Source: Treponema sp.
Lineage (GTDB): Bacteria; Spirochaetota; Spirochaetia; Treponematales; Treponemataceae
Assembly: GCA_017521105.1 (NCBI GenBank)
Contig: JAFXDY010000058.1
Span: 1-32,811, forward strand
DNA length: 32,811 nt
Direction: 5' to 3'
This document shows positions 1-10,804 of the stretch, piece by piece. The number at the start of each line of letters is the position of its first letter. The first letter of the stretch is position 1. The notes beneath the pieces are model-generated. The model was not told where the DNA came from and ran no database searches. It saw only the letters and a list, made by a program, of their open reading frames with translations. Both the position numbers and the translations under genes were made by a program.

Positions 1-622
1 GAATTGCATTTTCTTCTTTTTCTGTAGAAATTAATGTTGCAAATGAAAATGGAATATTTTCTGCTGGGCGTTTTTGCCCATAAACTTCTGGAACAAGTTC
101 ATCTGCGTACACAAATATAATTTGTTTTTCTGTTCCTGCTAAAAGTGGTGCAACTGCAGCCTTAAAGCAGTCTGCAAAGTTGTTTTTTGATGGATACAAA
201 ACAGAGTATCCGCCAGTTAGTTTAAAAGCCAAAGTTGCCAAAGCCACCGGTGTATTAAAAACTGAAAGTGAAAATCCTGCTGGAAGAATCATTTCGTCTT
301 CAATTAAAGATTTGTTGATTGTAAATTCTCGTTCAATTTCACCACGCAACGAACAAAAAACAATTTTTGTTTCTTTATCAAAAGAATCTGGATTTTTGGC
401 ATTTACGCTTTCTATCAAATTATGAATTGTGTGAATTGTCATTTTTGAAATTTGACTTAAGCGACGACGGAATAACGGATCTGTATATTCCAATTTTGGA
501 GAATCTTTTGTTTGTTCAATTTGCACATCTGATTCACCTTTTGCCCATTTTTGCCAATTTTCTTTATTATCTAACAAACCAGGAGCCCAAGGTGAAATGT
601 GTGATAAATATAATTCTTTCAT
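1..622 (-). CDS. Beta-ketoacyl synthase-like chain length factor, partial (C-terminus beyond left edge)
   Basis: This reading frame runs leftward from an ATG at 622 and is still open at the window edge, giving 207 visible codons. The start MKELYLSHISPWAPGL matches what I know of the short ketosynthase-like family (Pfam Ketoacyl-synt_2, about 240 residues) found in aryl polyene clusters. There it pairs with a true ketosynthase as a chain length factor (ApeC in E. coli). About 35 residues are probably missing. The ATG overlaps the TAA of the methyltransferase by one base (TAATG), so the two genes are translationally coupled and in one operon. The family call is from memory of the motif and the neighbours, and the partner ketosynthase is not in the window. 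Confidence 0.72.
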   Translation of the reverse strand, partial: MKELYLSHISPWAPGLLDNKENWQKWAKGESDVQIEQTKDSPKLEYTDPLFRRRLSQISKMTIHTIHNLIESVNAKNPDSFDKETKIVFCSLRGEIEREFTINKSLIEDEMILPAGFSLSVFNTPVALATLAFKLTGGYSVLYPSKNNFADCFKAAVAPLLAGTEKQIIFVYADELVPEVYGQKRPAENIPFSFATLISTEKEENAI

Positions 623-1740
623 TATTTTTTCTTAAAACAAAGCAATGAATATGCGTTTGAACCCAAATTATGGTGTGCACAATCTAGTTTAAATCCTGCT
701 TCTTCAATTGCATCTACAAGTTCTTGATAGCGATACATTTTGCTGTTTCCGTTTGCAATACAAGTAAAATATAATGAAGTTCCTTGTAAAGCATAAGAAC
801 TTGCTTCAAATTTTTGTTGATCCCAAAGAGGTTCCAAAACCCAAACATTTGTGTTTTCATTTGCAGCTTCGTGAACTTTTTTAAGAATTTTTGTTACTTG
901 GTGTAAAGAAAAACAATCTAAGAATTGACTCATCCAAACTGCATCTGGATCTTTTGGCAATTTTGTTGATTCATGCAAAACGTTTCCAACGCTAAAACTT
1001 ACTCTGTCTGCAAAACCTGCTTCTGCGGCATTTTTTTCTGCAACTGCTGTTTGACCTGGTAAGTCACAAATTGTCATTTTTACATCTGGATTATATTTAC
1101 AACAAGTAATTGACCATTTTCCTGTGTTTCCACCAATGTCTAAAATTGTTTTTGGATTTTTACTGAAAACAATTGGCAACGCTTCTGGGAATGCAATGTC
1201 TGAATAAAAATGGTCAAAATCGAACCAACTTTTTTTAGCTTTTTCTGGAAGTGTAGAAAGAGCTTCGTAAACAGTTGTCCATTGGTCGCCAAAAACTTTT
1301 AAGCCTTCTGGTTTACCATTTACAATTGATTTTTCTAAGTCCCAAGCACCTTCGTAACAAATGTCGTTTGTGAACCAAAAATTAACTTTACAAAGGTCGT
1401 CTTCTAAAAGCATCCAACCAATTTTTCCAAGTTTATATTTTTCTGTTTTTGGGTCAGAAACGGAATCTTCTGTTAATTTAATAACGTTCATTCCGAGTGC
1501 CATTTCACAAAGAACACCAACACCATATTCCGAAACATTTGTTTTTTCTGCTAAGTCTTTTCTTGAAATTCCTTCATCATCTGCGGCTTCAATTGCTTGC
1601 AAAATTCCAAGATTAATCATAGTTTTTATTGCTTGAAATGCCAAAGGCGCAAAAGCAATTTTGTTTGCTTCAAATTTTGCGTCTACAGCACGAATATTGT
1701 CATTTTTAAATTTGCTAATGTCAAAAAAAGATGAATCCAT
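622..1740 (-). CDS. SAM-dependent methyltransferase, O-methyltransferase family, APE-like cluster
   Basis: A 372-residue protein with the layout of the plant/antibiotic O-methyltransferase family: an N-terminal helical, winged-helix dimerisation part (about residues 25-110) and a C-terminal Rossmann domain. The glycine-rich SAM loop DIGGNTGKW starts at residue 201, followed by an acidic strand end (TICDLPG) and the WMSQFLDCFS segment. AGGAG at 1748-1752 is seven bases before the ATG. Aryl polyene clusters often carry a methyltransferase that modifies the aryl head group, which is the likely role here; the acceptor atom cannot be told from sequence. It is the first gene of a leftward operon with the chain length factor, divergent from the carrier-protein operon. 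Confidence 0.85.
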   Translation of the reverse strand: MDSSFFDISKFKNDNIRAVDAKFEANKIAFAPLAFQAIKTMINLGILQAIEAADDEGISRKDLAEKTNVSEYGVGVLCEMALGMNVIKLTEDSVSDPKTEKYKLGKIGWMLLEDDLCKVNFWFTNDICYEGAWDLEKSIVNGKPEGLKVFGDQWTTVYEALSTLPEKAKKSWFDFDHFYSDIAFPEALPIVFSKNPKTILDIGGNTGKWSITCCKYNPDVKMTICDLPGQTAVAEKNAAEAGFADRVSFSVGNVLHESTKLPKDPDAVWMSQFLDCFSLHQVTKILKKVHEAANENTNVWVLEPLWDQQKFEASSYALQGTSLYFTCIANGNSKMYRYQELVDAIEEAGFKLDCAHHNLGSNAYSLLCFKKK

Positions 1741-1771
1741 AGGAAGACTCCTAAAAAAAAACTACAATTGA

Positions 1772-1800
1772 AGAATATTGAAAACAATGCTAAATTTCAA
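1772..1800 (-). promoter_or_regulatory. Predicted sigma-70 type promoter for the leftward methyltransferase operon
   Basis: On the minus strand TTGAAA (1795-1800) is separated by exactly 17 bases from TATTCT (1772-1777), about 30 bases before the methyltransferase start. The region is AT-rich, so chance matches are possible. Confidence 0.5.
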
Positions 1801-1826
1801 GTAATGTTGCAAAAATATACATTGTA

Positions 1827-1855
1827 TTGCATTTTTTTCTTGTTTATTCTAGAAT
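1827..1855 (+). promoter_or_regulatory. Predicted sigma-70 type promoter for the rightward carrier-protein operon
   Basis: TTGCAT (1827-1832), 17 bases, TAGAAT (1850-1855). The transcript would start near 1862 and leave a leader of about 45 bases with GAGG at 1893-1896 before the first carrier-protein ATG. The -10 box lies inside a perfect palindrome. Confidence 0.55.
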
Positions 1856-1878
1856 AAAAAAAGTATCTTTATATAAAG
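1843..1878. promoter_or_regulatory. Two perfect palindromes over the start region of the carrier-protein promoter (possible operators)
   Basis: TTTATTCTAGAATAAA (1843-1858) is a 16-base perfect palindrome that covers the predicted -10 box. CTTTATATAAAG (1867-1878) is a 12-base perfect palindrome just after the predicted transcription start. Their centres are 22 bases apart, two helical turns. This is a plausible place for a dimeric repressor, but no regulator gene is visible next to it. Confidence 0.4.
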
Positions 1879-1906
1879 GTGCATATTTTTTTGAGGCTGT
1901 GAATTT

Positions 1907-2170
1907 ATGGAAGTATTAAAAAGAGAAATTAAAAATGTTATTATTTCTTCATTGCAGCTAGAAGATATTACTCCAGAAAATATTGTGGATTCAGAACCTT
2001 TGTTTGGAGAAGGCTTGGGGCTTGATTCAATTGATGCGTTGGAATTAGGCGTGGCCTTAAAGAAAAAATTTGGTGTAAAATTTTCTTCAGAAAGTGAAGA
2101 ATCAAAAAAACACTTTGCATCTGTAGATGCTTTAGCAGAATACATTACAGCTCAAAGAGCTGAAAAATAA
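1907..2170 (+). CDS. Acyl carrier protein 1 of the APE-like cluster
   Basis: An 87-residue acidic four-helix carrier protein. The phosphopantetheine attachment motif GLDSIDALEL places the modified serine at residue 41. Length and motif position are normal for acyl carrier proteins. GAGG at 1893-1896 precedes the ATG by ten bases. It is the first gene of the rightward operon and lies 13 bases before a second, different carrier protein. Aryl polyene clusters typically have two such proteins side by side (ApeE and ApeF in E. coli), one often used for loading and one for elongation. Which is which here cannot be read from sequence. Confidence 0.9.
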   Translation: MEVLKREIKNVIISSLQLEDITPENIVDSEPLFGEGLGLDSIDALELGVALKKKFGVKFSSESEESKKHFASVDALAEYITAQRAEK

Positions 2171-2183
2171 GTGAGGATATATT

Positions 2184-2435
2184 ATGTCTAATGATGAAAT
2201 TTTTGCAAAATTAAAAGAAATTCTTGTATCAGAATTCGAAATTGACGAAGCTGATATCACAAAAGATGCTCTTTTAGGAGATGATTTAGACTTAGATTCT
2301 ATTGATTCAATTGACTTAATTGTAAAAATGAAAGAATTTATGGCTAAAGACAAAGGAAACGTAGATCCTTCAATCTTCAAATCTGTAAAAACAATTGGCG
2401 ATGTTGTTGAAGCTCTTGTTCCTTACATGGCATAA
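2184..2435 (+). CDS. Acyl carrier protein 2 of the APE-like cluster
   Basis: An 83-residue carrier protein with attachment motif DLDLDSIDSIDL and the modified serine at residue 39. It is not a recent duplicate of the preceding carrier protein: outside the attachment helix the two differ clearly, and this one has an extra charged MAKDKGN stretch in the later half. The ribosome site GTGAGGATAT lies just before the ATG at 2184. It would carry intermediates for the ketosynthase/chain length factor pair and receive activated acids from the downstream ligase. Confidence 0.9.
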   Translation: MSNDEIFAKLKEILVSEFEIDEADITKDALLGDDLDLDSIDSIDLIVKMKEFMAKDKGNVDPSIFKSVKTIGDVVEALVPYMA

Positions 2436-2444
2436 CAAAAACTA

Positions 2445-4472
2445 ATGAAGAAGTTCCTAAAAGTTCTTTTTTATGTAATTGCGGCTGTTTATCCTTTTTT
2501 GGTTTTTACATTTTTAGTAATACTAAAATTACCAACAAGGATTCTTTCGTTATGTATTATAGCGTTGGCAGCTGCATTCTTTTTAAGTGCAACAGGGACA
2601 AAAAAAGCCGGAAGTAAAGAAAGTAAAAATGCATTGGATTGGAAACCGTTGGTTAGTTCTGCATTGTTTCTTACAGCCGGCATTTTTTGTTTTATAACAG
2701 GAAAAGAAGTTTTTTTAAAACTTTATTCTGTGGTAATTAGTGCAACTTTGTTATTTGTTTTTGGCAGCACACTATTCTTTAAACCAAATTTGATTTTTAG
2801 GTTAGCAACTTTAACTGACAAATCAATTATTGGTTCTTCTTATGAAAAAGCTGTTTATTCTTATTGTCAAAAAGTTACTATTATTTGGTGTTGTTTTTTT
2901 ATTCTAAATGGTTTTGTTTCGGTTTGTACAGCTTTTGCCGGAAAATTATTTGGAGTAAACGAAGAAGTTGCAAATACAATTTGGTCTGTTTATAACGGTG
3001 GAATTTCTTACGTTTTAATGGGACTTCTTTTTGCAATTGAATTTATTGTTCGTAAAATTGTGGATAAAAAAATGATTAAAGCATATCCTATTACAAAATT
3101 TAAAAGTGATTCTAGGAAAGATGATTATGTTCTTTGTTATGAAGATTATTGGACAAAGAAAAAATATAAAACTTGGAAAGATTTTTTAATTGATACTGCA
3201 AAAGTTCGTAAGGCTGTAAATGCCAGTGGCGCAGATGAGTGGATTTTGCACTGTGAAGATTATTGGTATTTTCTTGTTACTTTTGTTGCGTTGTTGCAAT
3301 GTAAAAAAAGTGTTTCTTTAACTCAAAACATTTCGGAATCTTTTATAAAAGAAATGAAAACTCCTGGTGTTCAATTATGGACAGACGTAAAAATAAATGA
3401 TTCTGATTTTACTTTTATTCCAGATGTAATTGAAAATGCAGAACTTCCTTTGGAAGAAGAAATTAGAACAACTCCAGAAATTAACGGTGAAGAAACTAGA
3501 ATTTTCTTGTTTACTTCTGGAAGTACAGGAAAACCAAAAGCAGTTCCTCAACGAATGAAAGAATTTGAAGAAGATAATGCTTTTATTATTTCTAAATGGG
3601 GAAAAGAAATTTGTGCAAGAAAATTGGTTACAACTGTTAGCCAACATCATATTTATGGATTTTTGTTTGGAATTTCTTTGCCTTTTACTTTGGGCGTTCC
3701 TTTTAGAAGACACAGAATTGAATTTCCTGAAGAATTTGAAAAATTAACTGATGAAAAATATGTAATTATTGCTACACCTGCATTCTTAAAACGAACTGTG
3801 GAGGTTGAAGAAAATTTAAATATGAAAGATGTTTGGATTTTTAGTTCGGGAGGGGCGGTTAGCCCAGAATTGGCTGTTCAAACTGGAAAATTGTTTAAGT
3901 TTTATCCGTTGGAAGTTTACGGTTCAACAGAAACTAGTGGAATTGCGTACAGACAGCAAGATAAAGATGGCCTTGTTTGGACTCCTTTTGATAATGCAAA
4001 AATTTGGCTTGGAGAAGATGGCTGTTTAAGAATTATTTCTCCGTATATTAAGAATCCTGAAGGTTTTGCAACTGCCGATTTGGCAGAAATGCTTGAAGAT
4101 GGAAAGTTTTTATTAAAAGGTCGTTCGGACAGCATTGTAAAAATTGAAGAAAAAAGAATTTCTGTTACAGAAGTTGAAAACAGATTATTGGAAACAAAAT
4201 TGGTTAGAGATGTAAAAGTTATTGCTCTTTCTAATGAAGTAAGACAATATTTGGCTTGTGCAATGGTTTTGAATGACGAAGGTAAAAAGAAATTTGAAAA
4301 TACAGAAAAGTTTTTGATTAATAGATATTTTCATGATTTTTTAATGCAATATTTTGAAAATGTTGTTTTGCCAAAAAAATGGAGATATTTAGATAAGCTT
4401 CCTACTGATGTTCAGGGAAAAGTTCATAAGCAGGAAGTGATTGCACTTTTTGAAACTGAAAATAAAGAATAA
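2445..4472 (+). CDS. Fusion of a multi-pass membrane domain and an AMP-forming acyl/aryl ligase
   Basis: A 675-residue two-part protein. Residues 1 to about 215 are hydrophobic with several likely membrane segments (about 5-60, 65-110, 145-165 and 180-205), like the small membrane protein (COG4648 type, ApeG) of aryl polyene clusters. From about 225 it is an adenylate-forming enzyme: the phosphate-binding loop TSGSTGKPK starts at residue 357, YGSTETSG lies near 492, the hinge region is LLKGRSDSIVKIEEKR, and a likely catalytic lysine is K659 in VQGKVHK. The ligase (ApeH-like) would activate an aryl or fatty acid and load a carrier protein. In the clusters I know these are two genes, so the fusion ties activation to the inner membrane. 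There is no clear ribosome site before the ATG, only an A-rich stretch. Confidence 0.82.
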   Translation: MKKFLKVLFYVIAAVYPFLVFTFLVILKLPTRILSLCIIALAAAFFLSATGTKKAGSKESKNALDWKPLVSSALFLTAGIFCFITGKEVFLKLYSVVISATLLFVFGSTLFFKPNLIFRLATLTDKSIIGSSYEKAVYSYCQKVTIIWCCFFILNGFVSVCTAFAGKLFGVNEEVANTIWSVYNGGISYVLMGLLFAIEFIVRKIVDKKMIKAYPITKFKSDSRKDDYVLCYEDYWTKKKYKTWKDFLIDTAKVRKAVNASGADEWILHCEDYWYFLVTFVALLQCKKSVSLTQNISESFIKEMKTPGVQLWTDVKINDSDFTFIPDVIENAELPLEEEIRTTPEINGEETRIFLFTSGSTGKPKAVPQRMKEFEEDNAFIISKWGKEICARKLVTTVSQHHIYGFLFGISLPFTLGVPFRRHRIEFPEEFEKLTDEKYVIIATPAFLKRTVEVEENLNMKDVWIFSSGGAVSPELAVQTGKLFKFYPLEVYGSTETSGIAYRQQDKDGLVWTPFDNAKIWLGEDGCLRIISPYIKNPEGFATADLAEMLEDGKFLLKGRSDSIVKIEEKRISVTEVENRLLETKLVRDVKVIALSNEVRQYLACAMVLNDEGKKKFENTEKFLINRYFHDFLMQYFENVVLPKKWRYLDKLPTDVQGKVHKQEVIALFETENKE

Positions 4473-4486
4473 TTAAGGATAAAAAA

Positions 4487-4855
4487 ATGAGCGAAAATTT
4501 ACACGATATTGTAAACGAAGAAGTTTTATTGAATGAAGACGGAAAAGTTATTTTGGAATTTGTAATTCCTGTAACAAGTGATTTTTTTGATGGTCACTTT
4601 CCAGAATACAAATTGCTTCCTGCTGTTGCACAATTTGAAGTTGTAACAAGATTTTCAAAAAAATATTTTGGTACACAGCGTTATGTTCCAAGTATTAAAA
4701 GAATTAAATTTTCGGCACCAATTAGACCAGACACAAAAGTTCACTTAGAATTGAATTATAAGGCAGAAAAACAATTGGTTCAATTTAATTTGAGCGATGC
4801 TAATGTTCCAGAAAAAGTGTATTCTTCTGGTAGTTTTAATGTTCTATCGGAATAA
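4487..4855 (+). CDS. Hot-dog fold 3-hydroxyacyl-ACP dehydratase, FabZ/ApeI-like
   Basis: A 122-residue single hot-dog domain. The FabZ-type active-site segment reads DGHFPEYKLLPAVAQFE, with likely catalytic H37 and E51. Their spacing of 14 matches FabZ-type enzymes. It departs from housekeeping FabZ (GHFPxxPxxPGV) in having KLLPAV where the proline-glycine motif sits, as expected for a cluster-specific member such as ApeI. It would dehydrate 3-hydroxyacyl intermediates to make the conjugated double bonds. AAGGA precedes the ATG. It is the last gene before the repeat-rich gap that divides the operon. Confidence 0.83.
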   Translation: MSENLHDIVNEEVLLNEDGKVILEFVIPVTSDFFDGHFPEYKLLPAVAQFEVVTRFSKKYFGTQRYVPSIKRIKFSAPIRPDTKVHLELNYKAEKQLVQFNLSDANVPEKVYSSGSFNVLSE

Positions 4856-4864
4856 GATGTATTT

Positions 4865-4956
4865 GTCATTGCGAGGAGTCCGTATAGGACGACGTGGCAA
4901 TCTATTTTCAAAGCGTAAACTTGAACACTGGATTGCTTCGCTACGCTCGCAATGAC
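4865..4956. repeat. Dispersed palindromic repeat bounded by GTCATTGCGAG
   Basis: A GC-rich block bounded by the 11-base inverted repeat GTCATTGCGAG (4865-4875) and CTCGCAATGAC (4946-4956), with an inner inverted pair GCAATC (4897-4902) and GATTGC (4931-4936). Short intergenic elements with these ends occur in many unrelated bacterial genomes; that is general knowledge, not something checked here. A partial second copy of the right arm (GGATTGCTTCGCT) lies at 4968-4980. The open frame across 4894-5112 is only repeat sequence. Confidence 0.75.
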
Positions 4957-5008
4957 GTGAGTGGGAAGGATTGCTTCGCTTTGCTCGCAGCAAAGACCAA
5001 AGTTTTTT

Positions 5009-5127
5009 GCACTAAGGATTGGAACACCGCCGCAGGCGTTCCTGGAACAAGCGTAGCTTGTGGAAGGAATGAGCGGATAGCGAAGTGTGGAAAGCCTGAC
5101 CCAAGCCTTTAGGCTTGGGGAGTGCCC
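5009..5127. repeat. GC-rich hairpin repeat, related to the element at 20102-20255
   Basis: The block is bounded by GCACT (5009-5013) and AGTGC (5121-5125) and holds several hairpins: ACAAGC/GCTTGT (5047-5061), CCCAAGCC/GGCTTGGG (5100-5119) and an imperfect GGAAC...GTTCC pair (5021-5042). Read on the minus strand it goes AGGGC, hairpin, GGGTC, TTCC, the same order as the element after the tRNA. The whole 4856-5161 gap is repeat sequence with no credible gene. Confidence 0.6.
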
Positions 5128-5161
5128 TAAAAAGAAAAAAAATATTGGGATTTTTTGAAAA

Positions 5162-5899
5162 ATGAAATATGGTTTTGTAGTTCCTGTTTATAATCATGGC
5201 TCGGCTTTGGAAAGTGTTGTAAAAAATATTGAAGGTTACAACTTTCCAATTATTGTTGTTGATGACGGGAATGATGAAAAAAATAAAAATGCAATTGCAG
5301 AAGTTGTAAAAAATCATCCTCTTTGTGTTTTGGTAACTCGCAAAAAAAATGGTGGAAAAGGAAAGGCACTTGCAGATGGTGTTAGAAAAGCTGATGAACT
5401 TGGATTAACCCATGTTTTGCAAATTGACTCAGATGGTCAGCACGATGCAGAACGGGTTGGGCATTTTGTTGAAGTTTCTAAGAAAAATCCTGAGGCAATT
5501 ATTTGTGCGTATCCTGAGTATGACGAAAGTGCGCCTAAACATAGGGTGAATGGCAGAACAATTGCAAATGCTTGGATTCATACGGTAACGCTTTCAAAAC
5601 AAATTAAAGACGGAATGATTGGTTTTAGAATTTATCCTGTGGCTCCTTATGTAAAACTGTTGAATAGCCATGCAATTATTGATGCTAGAATGGGGTATGA
5701 TATTGATATTTTGGTTAGATTGTTTTGGAAAAATGTTCCGGTAATTTGTGAGTCTGTAAAAGTAACTTATCCTGTTGATGGTGTTTCTAATTTTAGATTA
5801 ATAAGAGATAATGCTAGAATTTCTTTAACTTATGCTAGATTATTTTTGGGTATGATTGTTAGATTACCGATTTTGATTTATAGGAAAATAAAAGGGTAG
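5162..5899 (+). CDS. Family 2 glycosyltransferase, dolichol-phosphate-mannose synthase-like
   Basis: A 245-residue GT-A fold protein. The N-terminal VPVYNHGSALESVV, VVDDGND near residue 36 and QIDSDGQHD (the metal/nucleotide-sugar aspartates) are classic family 2 motifs. There is no strong membrane segment, only an amphipathic C-terminus (FLGMIVRLPILIYRKIKG) that could sit on the membrane. Aryl polyene clusters carry a glycosyltransferase next to an acyltransferase, in some cases fused; here they are two adjacent genes seven bases apart. Probable role: adding a sugar, or making a sugar-lipid anchor, for the polyene product. The ribosome site is weak and the gene follows the repeat block, so it may have lost tight coupling to the upstream genes. 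Confidence 0.85.
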   Translation: MKYGFVVPVYNHGSALESVVKNIEGYNFPIIVVDDGNDEKNKNAIAEVVKNHPLCVLVTRKKNGGKGKALADGVRKADELGLTHVLQIDSDGQHDAERVGHFVEVSKKNPEAIICAYPEYDESAPKHRVNGRTIANAWIHTVTLSKQIKDGMIGFRIYPVAPYVKLLNSHAIIDARMGYDIDILVRLFWKNVPVICESVKVTYPVDGVSNFRLIRDNARISLTYARLFLGMIVRLPILIYRKIKG

Positions 5900-5906
5900 T
5901 TATTGA

Positions 5907-6896
5907 ATGGAAAAAACTAAGGTTCAAGATAATGAAATGAATCTTCACTGGGCTGATGAACAGGAAGCAATAAAAACAAATAAACCTCTTGTATTTTTAC
6001 TGGATATTGTAAAATTTATGCCAAGATGGTTTTCTTATATTATTGTTTTTCCTGTAAGTTTTTTCTTTTTTATTTTTTCTAAACGTGCAAGAAATGAAGC
6101 AAAATATTATCAAAAAGTTTTAAGAGAATATACAAATGGGGAAGTTCCAAAAAGAATTAGTGCTTATAAGCAGATTTTTTCTTTTTCTATGTGTATTGTA
6201 GAAAAGTTGGATGGTTGGCTTGGTAGATTTGATTATGACAAATTGATTAAGCATGATGATGATTTGCCTGTGATTTTGAAGCAGCTTGATGAAGGAAAAG
6301 GTGCTTTTATTATTGGATCTCATTTGGGAAATATGGAATTGCTTAGAAGTATTTCTAGTTTGAATTCTTCTGGTGTAAAACGTCATGTTGATGTTACGGC
6401 CATTATGGAAATGAATTCCACTGAACAATTTAATAATGTTTTGAAAACTGTTGATCCAAATGTTCAAATGAATCTTATTGATGCAAAGAATATTGGGCCA
6501 GAAACAATTTGTCTTATTGAAGATAAAATTAATGAAGGTGGAATGGTTTTTATTGCGGCAGATAGAACTTCGGCAAGTGCAAGAACTAGAGTTTTAACCC
6601 ATAAATTTTTGGGAAAAGAAGCAGAGTTTCCTTATGGTGTTTTTATGATGGCTTCTTTGTTAAAAGTTCCAACTTATTATATTTTTGGAATGCGTGATAA
6701 AACTGTAACTTTATTGCCAAAACAGCATATTTATGTTGAAAAGTCGAATGTAGATTTTAATTGTGCCAGAAATGAACGAGAAAGCAGAATTAATGATTTG
6801 TGTTTGGAATATATTTCAAAATTGGAAAAATATGTGAAAATGTATCCGTATCAGTGGTATAATTTTCATAATTTTTGGTTGTTACAAAATAAATAA
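5907..6896 (+). CDS. LpxL-like lysophospholipid/lipid A-type acyltransferase
   Basis: A 329-residue protein with an N-terminal membrane segment (WFSYIIVFPVSFFFFIF, about residues 42-60) and the HxxxxE catalytic motif GSHLGNMELLRS (H139, E144), typical of LpxL/HtrB-like acyltransferases. IAADRT near residue 213 fits the second conserved block of this family. It would transfer the acyl or polyene chain from a carrier protein to a glycolipid or phospholipid acceptor at the inner membrane. It sits directly after the glycosyltransferase and before the carrier and exporter, matching the assembly and export part of an aryl polyene cluster. Confidence 0.85.
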   Translation: MEKTKVQDNEMNLHWADEQEAIKTNKPLVFLLDIVKFMPRWFSYIIVFPVSFFFFIFSKRARNEAKYYQKVLREYTNGEVPKRISAYKQIFSFSMCIVEKLDGWLGRFDYDKLIKHDDDLPVILKQLDEGKGAFIIGSHLGNMELLRSISSLNSSGVKRHVDVTAIMEMNSTEQFNNVLKTVDPNVQMNLIDAKNIGPETICLIEDKINEGGMVFIAADRTSASARTRVLTHKFLGKEAEFPYGVFMMASLLKVPTYYIFGMRDKTVTLLPKQHIYVEKSNVDFNCARNERESRINDLCLEYISKLEKYVKMYPYQWYNFHNFWLLQNK

Positions 6897-6960
6897 AAAA
6901 AAGTTGAAAAATGAAAAAGTTAAAAATAAATTTATAGTAAAAATTTTTGAGGAAAAGGCT

Positions 6961-7593
6961 ATGAAGAAAGGAAAGAAATTATTAATTTTGGTTTCGTTGC
7001 TTTCGGCTGCTAGTGCTTTATTTGCGGCAGGAACAACAATGGAAGATGTTTGTAATAAGCTTGCAAAGCATCCAATTACAAAAGGTGAATTTATTCAAAC
7101 TAAAACAATTAAGGCTACAAAGAGAGCATTAAAATCAAGTGGCGAATTTATTTTTAGTTTAGATGGAATTATGTGGAAAACATTAAAACCTTTTCCATCA
7201 TCAATGATTGTTACAACAAAGTCTGTAATTCAAGTGGCAGCTGATGGTTCAAAAACTGTAATTGATGTTTCTGATAATCAGATTTTTGGTAGTATTGCTA
7301 CAACTTTAGTGGCAGTTTTTTCAAATGATGTAAAGCAATTAAAAGCAAATTTTAACACAATATTTAATGATAAAGGCGATGGTTCTTGGGAATTAATTCT
7401 TAATCCAAAAGATTCTACAATTGCTTCGGTAATGCAAACTTTAACATTAGGCGGTAGAAATTATGCAACAGAAGCTTCTATTGATTCAATTGTTATGACA
7501 GAAGCATCTGGAAACACAATTAAATATGACTTTATTAATCAAACATATCCAGAGGAGTTAACTCAAAATGAAAAAGATAATTTCGGTTCTTAA
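6961..7593 (+). CDS. LolA-like periplasmic lipid/lipoprotein carrier
   Basis: I place the start at the ATG at 6961: TTGAGGAAAAGGCT gives a ribosome site just upstream and the protein then begins with a clear signal peptide (MKKGKKLLILVSLLSAASALFAAG). An in-frame TTG at 6904 has neither. The 210-residue product has the LolA pattern: TKGEFIQTKTIKATKRALKSSGEFIFS, then MWKTLKPFPSSMIV. LolA-type proteins are half-barrels that shuttle hydrophobic cargo across the periplasm. A dedicated LolA-like gene beside an MMPL exporter is characteristic of aryl polyene and related outer-membrane lipid clusters. It overlaps the exporter gene by 26 bases, so the two are co-translated. Confidence 0.87.
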   Translation: MKKGKKLLILVSLLSAASALFAAGTTMEDVCNKLAKHPITKGEFIQTKTIKATKRALKSSGEFIFSLDGIMWKTLKPFPSSMIVTTKSVIQVAADGSKTVIDVSDNQIFGSIATTLVAVFSNDVKQLKANFNTIFNDKGDGSWELILNPKDSTIASVMQTLTLGGRNYATEASIDSIVMTEASGNTIKYDFINQTYPEELTQNEKDNFGS

Positions 7594-9952
7594 GAATCTA
7601 GAAAACAAGACATATTTTAAAATTTGGCTTTTCTTTCATCTAGCGGTTATTCTTTTTTTTGCAATTAATTTTTTTATAAAACCAAGCAGCATTGGTGTTG
7701 ATGCTGACCTTTTTAATATGTTACCAAAGTCATCGGCTGCAAAGTCAATTCAAGCGGCAGATGAAAAACTTACAGAAATAACTGGGCAAAACGTTTTTAT
7801 TCTTGTTTCTAACAAAGATTTTGCTAAGGCAAAAGCTGCTGCAGTTTCTGCCTATTCACAATTAGAAAATAGCAAAAACTTTAATTCCCTTTCTTTATAT
7901 AACGATATTGGCTCTTTGGATGGTGTTACAAAGTTCTTATTTGACTACAGATGGAATTTGTTAGATGACGCTACAATTGATTTACTAAACGCTCCTGGTG
8001 GGGCAGAAACTTTTGCAACTAACGCTTTAGGTTCAATTTATGGTGGCTTTACAATGCTTCCTTTGGATAATCTAGAGCAAGATCCTTTTATGCTTGCAGA
8101 ACATGATTTAAAAAATTATTTGGATGCTGTGCAAGACTCTGGTGTTGCAATGTCTGTAAAAGATGGAGTTTTGGCTTCTGAACACGATGGAAAATGGTAT
8201 GTAATGATTCGTGGCGTTTTGAGTAAACAAGGAGCCGCTCTTGCAAGTAAAGATAATGGTGTTTCTGAAATTTACAGAGTTTGTGGTGCTTTAGAAACTG
8301 ATGGAACAGATTTTGTTTATTCGGGAACTCCTTTCCATAGTCATGAAAGTTCAAACTCTGCATCAAGAGAAATTACAATTATTTCTACAATTTCTTTGTT
8401 AGTTGTAATTGTAATGTTGCTAATTGTTTTTAAGTCGGGAGTACCTTTAGTTGTTTCTGTAGGTTCTATTCTAGTTTCAATTTTAACGGCAATTTTAGCA
8501 ACTTTGGGTGTTTTCCACAAAATGCACATTTTGACATTAGTTTTTGGAACTTCATTAATTGGTTCTTGTATTGACTATAGTATTCATTTTTTTACGCATT
8601 GGGCTGGAAATTCAAAATTAAAATCTGGAAAAGAAATTAGACAGGAATTGTTGCCAAGTTTGAGCATGGCAATTATTTCTTCTTGTTTATGTTTTGCAAT
8701 TTTATTATTTGCTCCATTTAATTTGCTAAAACAAATGGCTTTATTCTCTTTGGTTGGATTATTTAGTTCATATTTAACAACAATAAGTCTTTATCCATTA
8801 ATTCCTTTACCAAAAGGTGAACGAAAAATCTATTTTAAACGATTGTTCAAGCCTGCAAAAAATCCTAAGCGCAAACAAATGGTTGGTAGAATTGTAATTA
8901 CAGGTTTGTTTGTGGTTTCAATTCTGTCGGTTGTGATTTTTAGAAAAAATATAAGAATTCATAACGATTTGAATAATTTGTATGCAATGGAAGGTGAATT
9001 ATTGGAAGATGAAATTCTTGCAAATACAATAATTCAATATAGCCCAACAGGATGGTTTATTATTTCTGGTGATACAGAAGAACAAACTTTAGAGAACGAA
9101 GAATTTTTAAGAGAAGAAATTGCTAAAATTTCAAAAGAAAAAGTTGGTTATTTGTGTACTTCTTTGTTTGTTCCTTCAATTAAAAAACAAAAAGAATCTC
9201 GTGGGGCTTGTGAAAATCTGTTGGCAATTGCAGATTATCAATATGAAGCATTAGGTTTTGATCCTTCTTGTGCAACGCAATTAAGAGAAGATTTTGAAAA
9301 AACAAATAGAGATTTTATTTCTTTAGGAAAACGAAATGTTCCTGCGTTTATTGCAGATTCCATTGCTTCATGTTGGCTTGGTGAAATTGATGGAAAATAT
9401 TATTCTGTTTTATTGCCAAACAAAATTGTAGATGCAAAAGCTTATGCAAAAATTGGTGAATATAATGATAACATATATTTTATAAATAAAATGGCAGATA
9501 TGGGAAAAGATTTGGATAAACTTACTATTATGGTTTTAAAATTCTTTGCTGTTGCTTATGTTATTATGTATGTTATTTTGCGATTCTTCTATAAGCGCAA
9601 AAATAGTTTAAAAATTATTTCTGTTCCATTGTTAATTGTTTTGGTTGCTGCTGCTGTTTTTGCAATTTTCAAAATAAATTTGGAATTCTTTTCGGTTACC
9701 GGTTTGATTTTAGTCTTTGGTCTTGGTTTGGATTACATAATCTATATGATGGAAAATGAAAAGGACCGAAGTAAAGAACAAGATAAAACATTGGAGCCAT
9801 TTGCAATTATGCTTTCATTTATTACTACAGTGGTTTCTTTTGGTGCATTGGCGTTAAGTTCTTTTGTTCCTGTTCATTTAATTGGATTGGTAATTTTCTT
9901 AGGACTTTCTACTGCGTATTTTAGTACAATGTTCTATGACAGAAGTTTTTAA
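7568..9952 (+). CDS. RND/MMPL-family exporter of the APE-like cluster
   Basis: A 794-residue protein with 12 predicted membrane segments in the RND order: one at about 18-37, a large periplasmic loop to about 265, five segments to about 415, one at 440-458, a second periplasmic loop to about 640, and five more to the C-terminus. SCIDYSIHFF and GLDYIIYMMEN carry the intramembrane aspartates expected for proton coupling. It ends only a few residues after the last segment but is complete. AGAGGAG upstream serves the ATG inside the lolA-like gene. It would extract the finished lipid and hand it to the LolA-like carrier. It closes the rightward cluster operon. Confidence 0.88.
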   Translation: MKKIISVLKNLENKTYFKIWLFFHLAVILFFAINFFIKPSSIGVDADLFNMLPKSSAAKSIQAADEKLTEITGQNVFILVSNKDFAKAKAAAVSAYSQLENSKNFNSLSLYNDIGSLDGVTKFLFDYRWNLLDDATIDLLNAPGGAETFATNALGSIYGGFTMLPLDNLEQDPFMLAEHDLKNYLDAVQDSGVAMSVKDGVLASEHDGKWYVMIRGVLSKQGAALASKDNGVSEIYRVCGALETDGTDFVYSGTPFHSHESSNSASREITIISTISLLVVIVMLLIVFKSGVPLVVSVGSILVSILTAILATLGVFHKMHILTLVFGTSLIGSCIDYSIHFFTHWAGNSKLKSGKEIRQELLPSLSMAIISSCLCFAILLFAPFNLLKQMALFSLVGLFSSYLTTISLYPLIPLPKGERKIYFKRLFKPAKNPKRKQMVGRIVITGLFVVSILSVVIFRKNIRIHNDLNNLYAMEGELLEDEILANTIIQYSPTGWFIISGDTEEQTLENEEFLREEIAKISKEKVGYLCTSLFVPSIKKQKESRGACENLLAIADYQYEALGFDPSCATQLREDFEKTNRDFISLGKRNVPAFIADSIASCWLGEIDGKYYSVLLPNKIVDAKAYAKIGEYNDNIYFINKMADMGKDLDKLTIMVLKFFAVAYVIMYVILRFFYKRKNSLKIISVPLLIVLVAAAVFAIFKINLEFFSVTGLILVFGLGLDYIIYMMENEKDRSKEQDKTLEPFAIMLSFITTVVSFGALALSSFVPVHLIGLVIFLGLSTAYFSTMFYDRSF

Positions 9953-9983: not shown

Positions 9984-10012
9984 TTTACGAATGAATTTTA
10001 TTTGTGTATCTT
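9984..10012 (+). promoter_or_regulatory. Predicted promoter for the META lipoprotein gene
   Basis: TTTACG (9984-9989), 17 bases, TATCTT (10007-10012). Transcription would start near 10019, just before the ribosome site AGGTGG at 10021. This suggests the lipoprotein is expressed separately from the exporter. Confidence 0.4.
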
Positions 10013-10033
10013 AATTCTAAAGGTGGTAACGCT

Positions 10034-10804
10034 ATGAAGTATTTAAAAATATTATTAGGAATGATGATGTGTGTTTTTCTTTTTAGTTGTAAAAACGAAG
10101 AAAACAATTTTGAAGGTTCATGGAAATTAATTTCTTATGAAAAAGATGGCATTGCACAAGTAATTGCAGATTCTACTTTGAATATAAGTTTTGAAAAGAA
10201 GAATCTTGTAAATATTAGTGGAAATGCTGGTGTAAATGATTTTATGGCTACAATTGGTTTAAACGATGGTGCAATTGAATCATTTTCAGAAATTGTAACA
10301 ACCCGTATGGCTGGAGATCCAGAAGTGATGCAATTTGAATCTGAATTATTGCAAACACTTTCTGGAGCAGATGTAATTGAAGTTGATATTGAAGAAAATG
10401 CAAAGTATTTAGTAATTACTAATACTAAAGAAAAATCAATATTAAAGTATCAATTCCAAACTAGTCAAAAATGGACAGTAGAAGCATTATTTTCTGATGA
10501 TGAACTTGAAAACATTTCTACAATAGAAAACAAACCATATTTAATTTTGTATGATAATGGCGATGTTGCTGGTTCAACTGGAATTAATCTTATTAATATG
10601 ACTTTTAAAATTGATGAATCAAAAAATGAAATTAAATTTTCTGAAGGTCCAATGACTTTAATTGCTGGTGATGGTGCTTCTTCAAAAATTGAAACTAGTT
10701 TTTTAAATAATTTAATAAAAACTGAATATTATGAAGAAAGCGGAAATAACTTAGTGTTCCTTTCTAAAGATGGAACTGTTTTAATTCAATTTGTAAAAGA
10801 ATAA
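10034..10804 (+). CDS. Lipoprotein with two META (HslJ-like) domains
   Basis: The start is the ATG at 10034: AGGTGG lies eight bases before it, and an in-frame GTG at 10004 falls inside a likely promoter. The 256-residue product begins with a lipoprotein signal ending LFS-C, with cysteine 19 as the likely lipidated residue. After it come two similar halves (about 25-140 and 145-256). Each has a GSWKL- or QKWTV-like strand, a middle segment with a glycine-asparagine turn, a TT/MT strand and a final hydrophobic strand, the pattern of META domains. Function is unknown; META lipoproteins are linked to envelope stress and inhibitor-type roles. Some aryl polyene clusters end with a small lipoprotein after the exporter, but this one has its own promoter and terminator. 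Confidence 0.7.
   Translation: MKYLKILLGMMMCVFLFSCKNEENNFEGSWKLISYEKDGIAQVIADSTLNISFEKKNLVNISGNAGVNDFMATIGLNDGAIESFSEIVTTRMAGDPEVMQFESELLQTLSGADVIEVDIEENAKYLVITNTKEKSILKYQFQTSQKWTVEALFSDDELENISTIENKPYLILYDNGDVAGSTGINLINMTFKIDESKNEIKFSEGPMTLIAGDGASSKIETSFLNNLIKTEYYEESGNNLVFLSKDGTVLIQFVKE

Follow-up and report, generated by a model that had tools for sequence, protein, structure and literature searches.

The window analysed here, a stretch of 32,811 nucleotides from contig JAFXDY010000058.1 (C95) of the Treponema sp. assembly GCA_017521105.1, very probably carries in its first 9952 positions most of what looks, as judged by homology, like a functional aryl polyene (APE) pathway, with the remainder on other contigs of the same assembly. 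Aryl polyenes are yellow antioxidant outer-membrane lipids of many Gram-negative bacteria. The host is a gut/rumen-type Treponema, Treponema_D-like in GTDB terms, and its assembly is a metagenome-assembled genome (MAG) of 232 contigs, 82% complete, in which the first base of C95 is position 1 of the window. The list of open reading frames (ORFs) and the profile searches identified ten APE-cluster genes at positions 1–9952, bearing out both the place and the families given in a preliminary description made from the sequence, while apeN, apeO, apeP, apeQ, apeR and apeD were found in the assembly off the window contig. When compared to the apeA–R set of Escherichia coli CFT073 (NC_004431, 1143727–1158748), the window proteins gave best matches of 23% to 60% identity, most with E values between 1e-13 and 1e-116, and 16 of the 18 E. 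coli Ape proteins were matched across three contigs (the window contig, C201, and C106), the exceptions being ApeA and ApeK. This agreement in content and order goes far beyond chance. The features of the window are as follows:

2..622, minus strand: apeC-like chain length factor, truncated at the contig start (Ketoacyl-synt_2 98 bits, cut-off 25; ApeC 27%, E 8e-17)
622..1740, minus strand: apeB-like S-adenosylmethionine (SAM) methyltransferase (ApeB 45% over 361 aa, E 1e-116)
1907..2170, plus strand: apeE-like acyl carrier protein (ACP) (ApeE 60%, E 4e-36; GLDSIDALELG retained)
2184..2435, plus strand: apeF-like ACP (ApeF 44%, E 1e-4; NF003757 82 bits, over the cut-off; DLDSIDSIDL)
2445..4472, plus strand: apeG-apeH fusion, membrane domain plus acyl-ACP ligase (AMP-binding)
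4487..4855, plus strand: apeI-like hot-dog dehydratase (PF22818 41 bits, cut-off 28.5; GHF...E motif retained)
5162..5899, plus strand: N-terminal half of apeJ as a separate GT2 glycosyltransferase (ApeJ residues 10–242, 40%, E 5e-68)
5907..6896, plus strand: C-terminal half of apeJ as a separate LpxL-like acyltransferase (ApeJ residues 294–551, 26%, E 4e-35)
6904..7593, plus strand: apeL-like LolA-family periplasmic carrier (LolA PF03548 over the cut-off; ApeL 28%, E 4e-30)
7568..9952, plus strand: apeM-like MMPL/RND exporter (MMPL over the cut-off; ApeM 23% over 790 aa, E 3e-42)
10004..10804, plus strand: META-domain lipoprotein gene, followed by dnaX; right boundary, outside the pathway

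The contig begins within apeC, the rest of which is supplied by C106 (L008), where the protein reaches its full length of 231 aa; its closest solved chain is 6qsp_B, and the columns of the catalytic Cys and His of ApeO and ApeR are not conserved in it, as expected for a chain length factor. The apeB-like O-methyltransferase, whose closest solved structure is 3dp7, probably has the aryl head group as its target. Both carrier proteins belong to the PP-binding family; the ApeF match is weaker than the others and the gene lies where expected in the cluster. In the fusion protein, residues 90–212 matched ApeG (37%, E 3e-18) and residues 353–670 matched ApeH (31%, E 3e-50), with which it has the ligase signature KIEEKRIS in common, and the LpxL-like acyltransferase scores slightly below its Pfam cut-off.

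A ketosynthase search of the genome retrieved C201 (L007), a 6.2 kb contig of the same assembly on which apeN (a DUF3261 lipoprotein, 57 bits), apeO (ketosynthase, KS), an apeP-like dehydratase (DH), apeQ (FabG-like ketoreductase, KR), and apeR (KS) follow one another. The first KS matched ApeO (38%, E 4e-81), the second, which is FabF/FabB-like, matched ApeR (49%, E 3e-150), and the KR matched ApeQ (61%, E 6e-101); the ApeP-like protein reached 26.8 bits against a cut-off of 27 with its catalytic residues retained. An ORF located after apeR and FtsK-like at first sight had no Pfam match and was left unnamed. On C106, the remaining part of apeC is followed to its left by an ApeD-like acyltransferase gene, beyond which lie a second PlsC gene and a HAD hydrolase gene unrelated to the pathway. 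C106 might have represented a second cluster; its overlap with window positions 1–675 at 96.4% DNA identity shows it to be the same locus in a variant strain. The presence of two variants of one locus in the assembly suggests that the MAG combines more than one strain.

Taken together, the contigs hold an ApeO-type KS with an ApeC-type chain length factor, ApeR, ApeQ, ApeI and ApeP, and the ApeL, ApeM, and ApeN components, as well as, by homology, a putative ApeH ligase with ApeE/ApeF carriers. A residue alignment revealed that the Cys-His-His of both KS, the Ser of both ACPs, the His/Glu of both DHs, and the Ser-Tyr-Lys of the KR are retained, and all ape reading frames in the window and on C201 are open. 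This intactness bears on the possibility that the genes are a degraded or non-functional remnant of a cluster that is breaking up and whose product is no longer made, for which one could cite the split of the cluster in this and other genomes, the failure to find ApeA and ApeK, and an IS3-type transposase remnant beside apeN. The open frames and retained residues speak against it, and so does the distribution of the genes: the ligase is conserved at 55–77% in most of the 38 genomes positive for it among the 59 of the genus (one further genome gave a partial match), and an apeO homologue was found in every ligase-bearing genome searched for it (19 + 19). We thus consider a remnant highly improbable and a functional-looking APE pathway the better description.

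The genes of an APE pathway usually, although not strictly necessarily, lie at one locus. Here they do not, as the apeN-O-P-Q-R block is on C201 with its own flanks. The preliminary description was correct that the window has divergent halves and lacks a KR and, between the acyltransferase gene and lolA, a thioesterase; it expected a catalytic KS and a KR to the left of position 1. Since the window begins at the first base of its contig, their lack in the window is partly an assembly limit; they were located instead on C201, and in relatives with an intact cluster they lie to the right of the exporter. The left flank, as seen on C106, continues with the ApeD-like gene and then the unrelated genes, and relatives have no KS or KR to the left of apeD. 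The absence of these two genes within 10 kb to the left, proposed earlier as an argument against an APE cluster, is therefore literally what is found as far as the flank is seen, but the left side was the wrong place to look.

Two relatives (G025 and G042) have the set in one piece, in the order D-C-(B) / E-F-GH-I-J-J-L-M-N-O-P-Q-R, with apeN directly after apeM and the N-O-P-Q-R block to the right of the exporter. In the window, the exporter is followed by the META lipoprotein gene and dnaX, and C201 starts in an IS3-type transposase, so the N–R block occupies another locus unless the contigs are misassembled. Dispersal also occurs in well-assembled relatives, in which the ligase-to-apeO distance is 34 kb (G203, a single contig), 27 kb (G169), and 93 kb (G287), while in G015 apeN-O-P, apeQ, and apeR are on a different contig from the ligase, with apeR approximately 38 kb from apeO. 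In this lineage the cluster has been broken up and occupies two or more loci, and an IS3-type element may have taken part. The transposase fragment itself spans positions 2–109 of C201, immediately upstream of apeN, and corresponds to the C-terminal end of the protein (rve_2, over the cut-off). Additionally, window positions 4866–4907, between apeI and the GT2 gene, and positions 4830–4871 of C201, after apeR, have a 42-bp stretch in common (93% identity, inverted orientation), which resembles a dispersed intergenic repeat.

By homology with the reconstituted and genetically characterized APE systems summarised in PMC8253772 and PMC8358021, the ApeGH ligase would adenylate an aromatic acid and load it onto the ApeE carrier; ApeR would start the chain, and ApeO-ApeC would extend it with malonyl units, each of which would be reduced by ApeQ and dehydrated by ApeI/ApeP to give a conjugated polyene. 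ApeB may methylate the ring; ApeD, together with both halves of ApeJ, would link the acid to a glyco/phospholipid anchor, and ApeM with ApeL and ApeN is predicted to carry the product to the outer membrane. Other APEs are pigments that protect against oxidative stress (as cited in PMC8253772 and PMC8549736).

In E. coli, the starter is 4-hydroxybenzoate, produced by chorismate lyase (PMC8253772). A UbiC-type starter was rejected here, as a profile search for chorismate lyase (PF04345) gave no match in 24 genomes; the starter would therefore probably be a hydroxycinnamate-type acid made via an ammonia-lyase or taken up from plant-derived aromatics. An aromatic-amino-acid ammonia-lyase with non-histidine active-site residues is encoded on contig C192 of the window genome, beside a DUF1846 gene, and in G025 the DUF1846–lyase pair is found on the contig that carries apeR, at a distance of a few kb from that gene. 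Its identification as a histidine ammonia-lyase was rejected on its scores (398–410 bits against HutH cut-offs of 539/524) and on its residues (YH and NQDK, not SH and NQED); urocanase, absent from all 24 genomes searched, likewise speaks against a role in histidine catabolism. Within the genus, the lyase is present in 25 of 38 ligase-positive genomes and in 1 of 20 ligase-negative ones (Fisher p 5e-6). That the C192 enzyme is the source of the starter is probable but unproven; such a starter predicts a hydroxycinnamate-derived, not a chorismate-derived, head group. Two genomes, G042 (L034) and G003 (L032), carry the cluster without an ApeB methyltransferase at the locus and without the lyase, so their head group may differ.

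Several points weigh against an APE pathway as described here. The starter step is its weakest part: 13 of the 38 cluster-bearing genomes have no lyase, and phylogenetically independent pairs, taken on a polyphosphate-kinase tree, gave 3 concordant and 0 discordant cases (p 0.25) in an underpowered test, so the association was counted as support only. Moreover, in the tree the lyase of Treponema belongs to a separate clade (100/100), apart from the lyases that are embedded in APE clusters. Counterparts of ApeA and ApeK were not found in the three contigs compared with the E. coli set, and E. coli lacking ApeA or ApeK makes APE acids and no mature APE lipid (PMC8253772). Several relatives retain ApeK between the acyltransferase and the carrier/exporter genes, so the gene was apparently lost in this lineage. 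Because the MAG is fragmented, the assignment of C201 and C192 to it depends on binning and on the synteny seen in relatives. Finally, the aryl polyene product is a prediction from the genes.

In many APE clusters an ammonia-lyase gene is situated between apeJ and apeK (26 of the 80 loci retrieved hold a lyase). The tree ruled out the C192 enzyme as a relocated cluster lyase, an idea replaced by possible non-orthologous recruitment. Tentatively, Treponema_D may have lost the embedded lyase and recruited a non-orthologous aromatic-amino-acid lyase, unlinked in most genomes, as the source of the aryl starter, the scattered pathway genes being kept by functional selection and not by linkage; we regard this scenario as possible, with the odds somewhat against it.

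The lyase also suits a flexirubin pathway, in which the same aryl polyene acid, begun from a tyrosine-ammonia-lyase starter, would be esterified to a dialkylresorcinol. The best NCBIfam models point in that direction, namely FlxJ for the methyltransferase and LolA2_flexi for the LolA-like carrier, and the KR matches FlxB; however, all equivalog models remained under their cut-offs (FlxJ 450/560, LolA2 62/125, FlxB 275/340, FlxA 350/700). DarB-type resorcinol synthases belong to the KAS-III family, of which no match was found in the window genome (82% complete; darA was not searched). A flexirubin product is accordingly very unlikely. The KAS III profile (PF08545), without a match in the window genome (G000), was present in 10 of 14 control genomes; fatty-acid initiation may differ in this genome, or the gene may lie in its missing part.

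Among 296 Spirochaetota genomes, the ligase was strongly present in the genus and in a few other genera, and the named genomes bearing it are gut Treponema MAGs, termite Treponema, Fibrobacter (41–43%), and Proteobacteria. Quick trees of the ligase and the methyltransferase placed both among APE proteins, together with those of Fibrobacter and other Spirochaetota, most of which group apart from Proteobacteria. Every component family also serves other lipids, which would suit an unrelated pathway, of the type II fatty-acid or glycolipid kind, that merely resembles APE biosynthesis; a grouping of the ligase with such a pathway had been named beforehand as a reason to abandon the assignment. The ligase did not group in this way, and that explanation is made extremely improbable by the one-to-one correspondence of the genes with the E. 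coli Ape set in a conserved order, by the ligase signature shared with ApeH, and by a chain length factor and a methyltransferase of the ApeC and APE types, respectively. The preliminary assignment of APE biosynthesis and export to a Treponema is borne out by the E. coli matches, the trees, and the catalytic residues. In two genomes of another Spirochaetota family (L100 and L101, family f24, approximately 3 Mb), a weaker, unfused ligase of about 30% identity was situated in a divergent APE-like cluster.

The rest of the window (10004–32811) is largely housekeeping in appearance and includes, besides the META lipoprotein gene and dnaX, genes for recR, an S41 protease, a sigma-54 activator, a polyphosphate kinase, and a GH130 phosphorylase. 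The puzzle of an APE cluster with neither KS nor KR is explained as a split locus, and a gene-level anatomy is provided for a pathway that gut surveys had listed in Spirochaetota as software calls. Contig-based counts of biosynthetic gene clusters will over- or under-count such split clusters, and a pathway that is scattered yet kept together in genomes makes the need for clustering a testable question.

When compared to known systems, the Treponema genes share with the flexirubin pathway of Bacteroidetes, which begins with a tyrosine ammonia-lyase starter, the predicted aryl polyene acid, the probable ammonia-lyase starter, and an FlxJ-type methyltransferase (PMC3992019); in contrast, the dialkylresorcinol half was not found (KAS-III was searched, darA was not) and every flexirubin equivalog cut-off was missed. 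With E. coli CFT073 they share the enzyme logic, and each Ape protein from B to J and from L to R has its counterpart. Unlike in E. coli, ApeG and ApeH are fused, ApeJ is split, no ApeA or ApeK was found, the first genes are divergent, and the N–R block lies elsewhere. The layout, first described as the cluster's own, recurs in Fibrobacter (L142, L145, L158, and L160), with the same divergent D-C-B / E-F-GH-J-J-(K)-L-M-N-O-P-Q order, a fused ApeGH, and a split ApeJ, the methyltransferase being approximately 61% identical to that of the window. Fibrobacter differs in an ammonia-lyase gene and apeK between the acyltransferase gene and lolA, and in a ligase ORF about 100 aa longer that, with no separate apeI, probably has ApeI fused on. 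APE clusters have been published for Treponema_D sp900541945 and rumen Spirochaetota from antiSMASH-type runs (PMC8863827, PMC9177762, PMC10904984) and for oral Treponema (PMC8549736), so the kind of cluster is already known. The former, of the same genus or phylum and the same type, are given in the available portions of those reports as software calls without anatomy. For one published bin, two arylpolyene calls are reported, which is what a split cluster would be expected to yield (PMC10904984). New here are the anatomy, the scattering of the pathway over several loci, and a candidate lyase that is not orthologous to those inside APE clusters.

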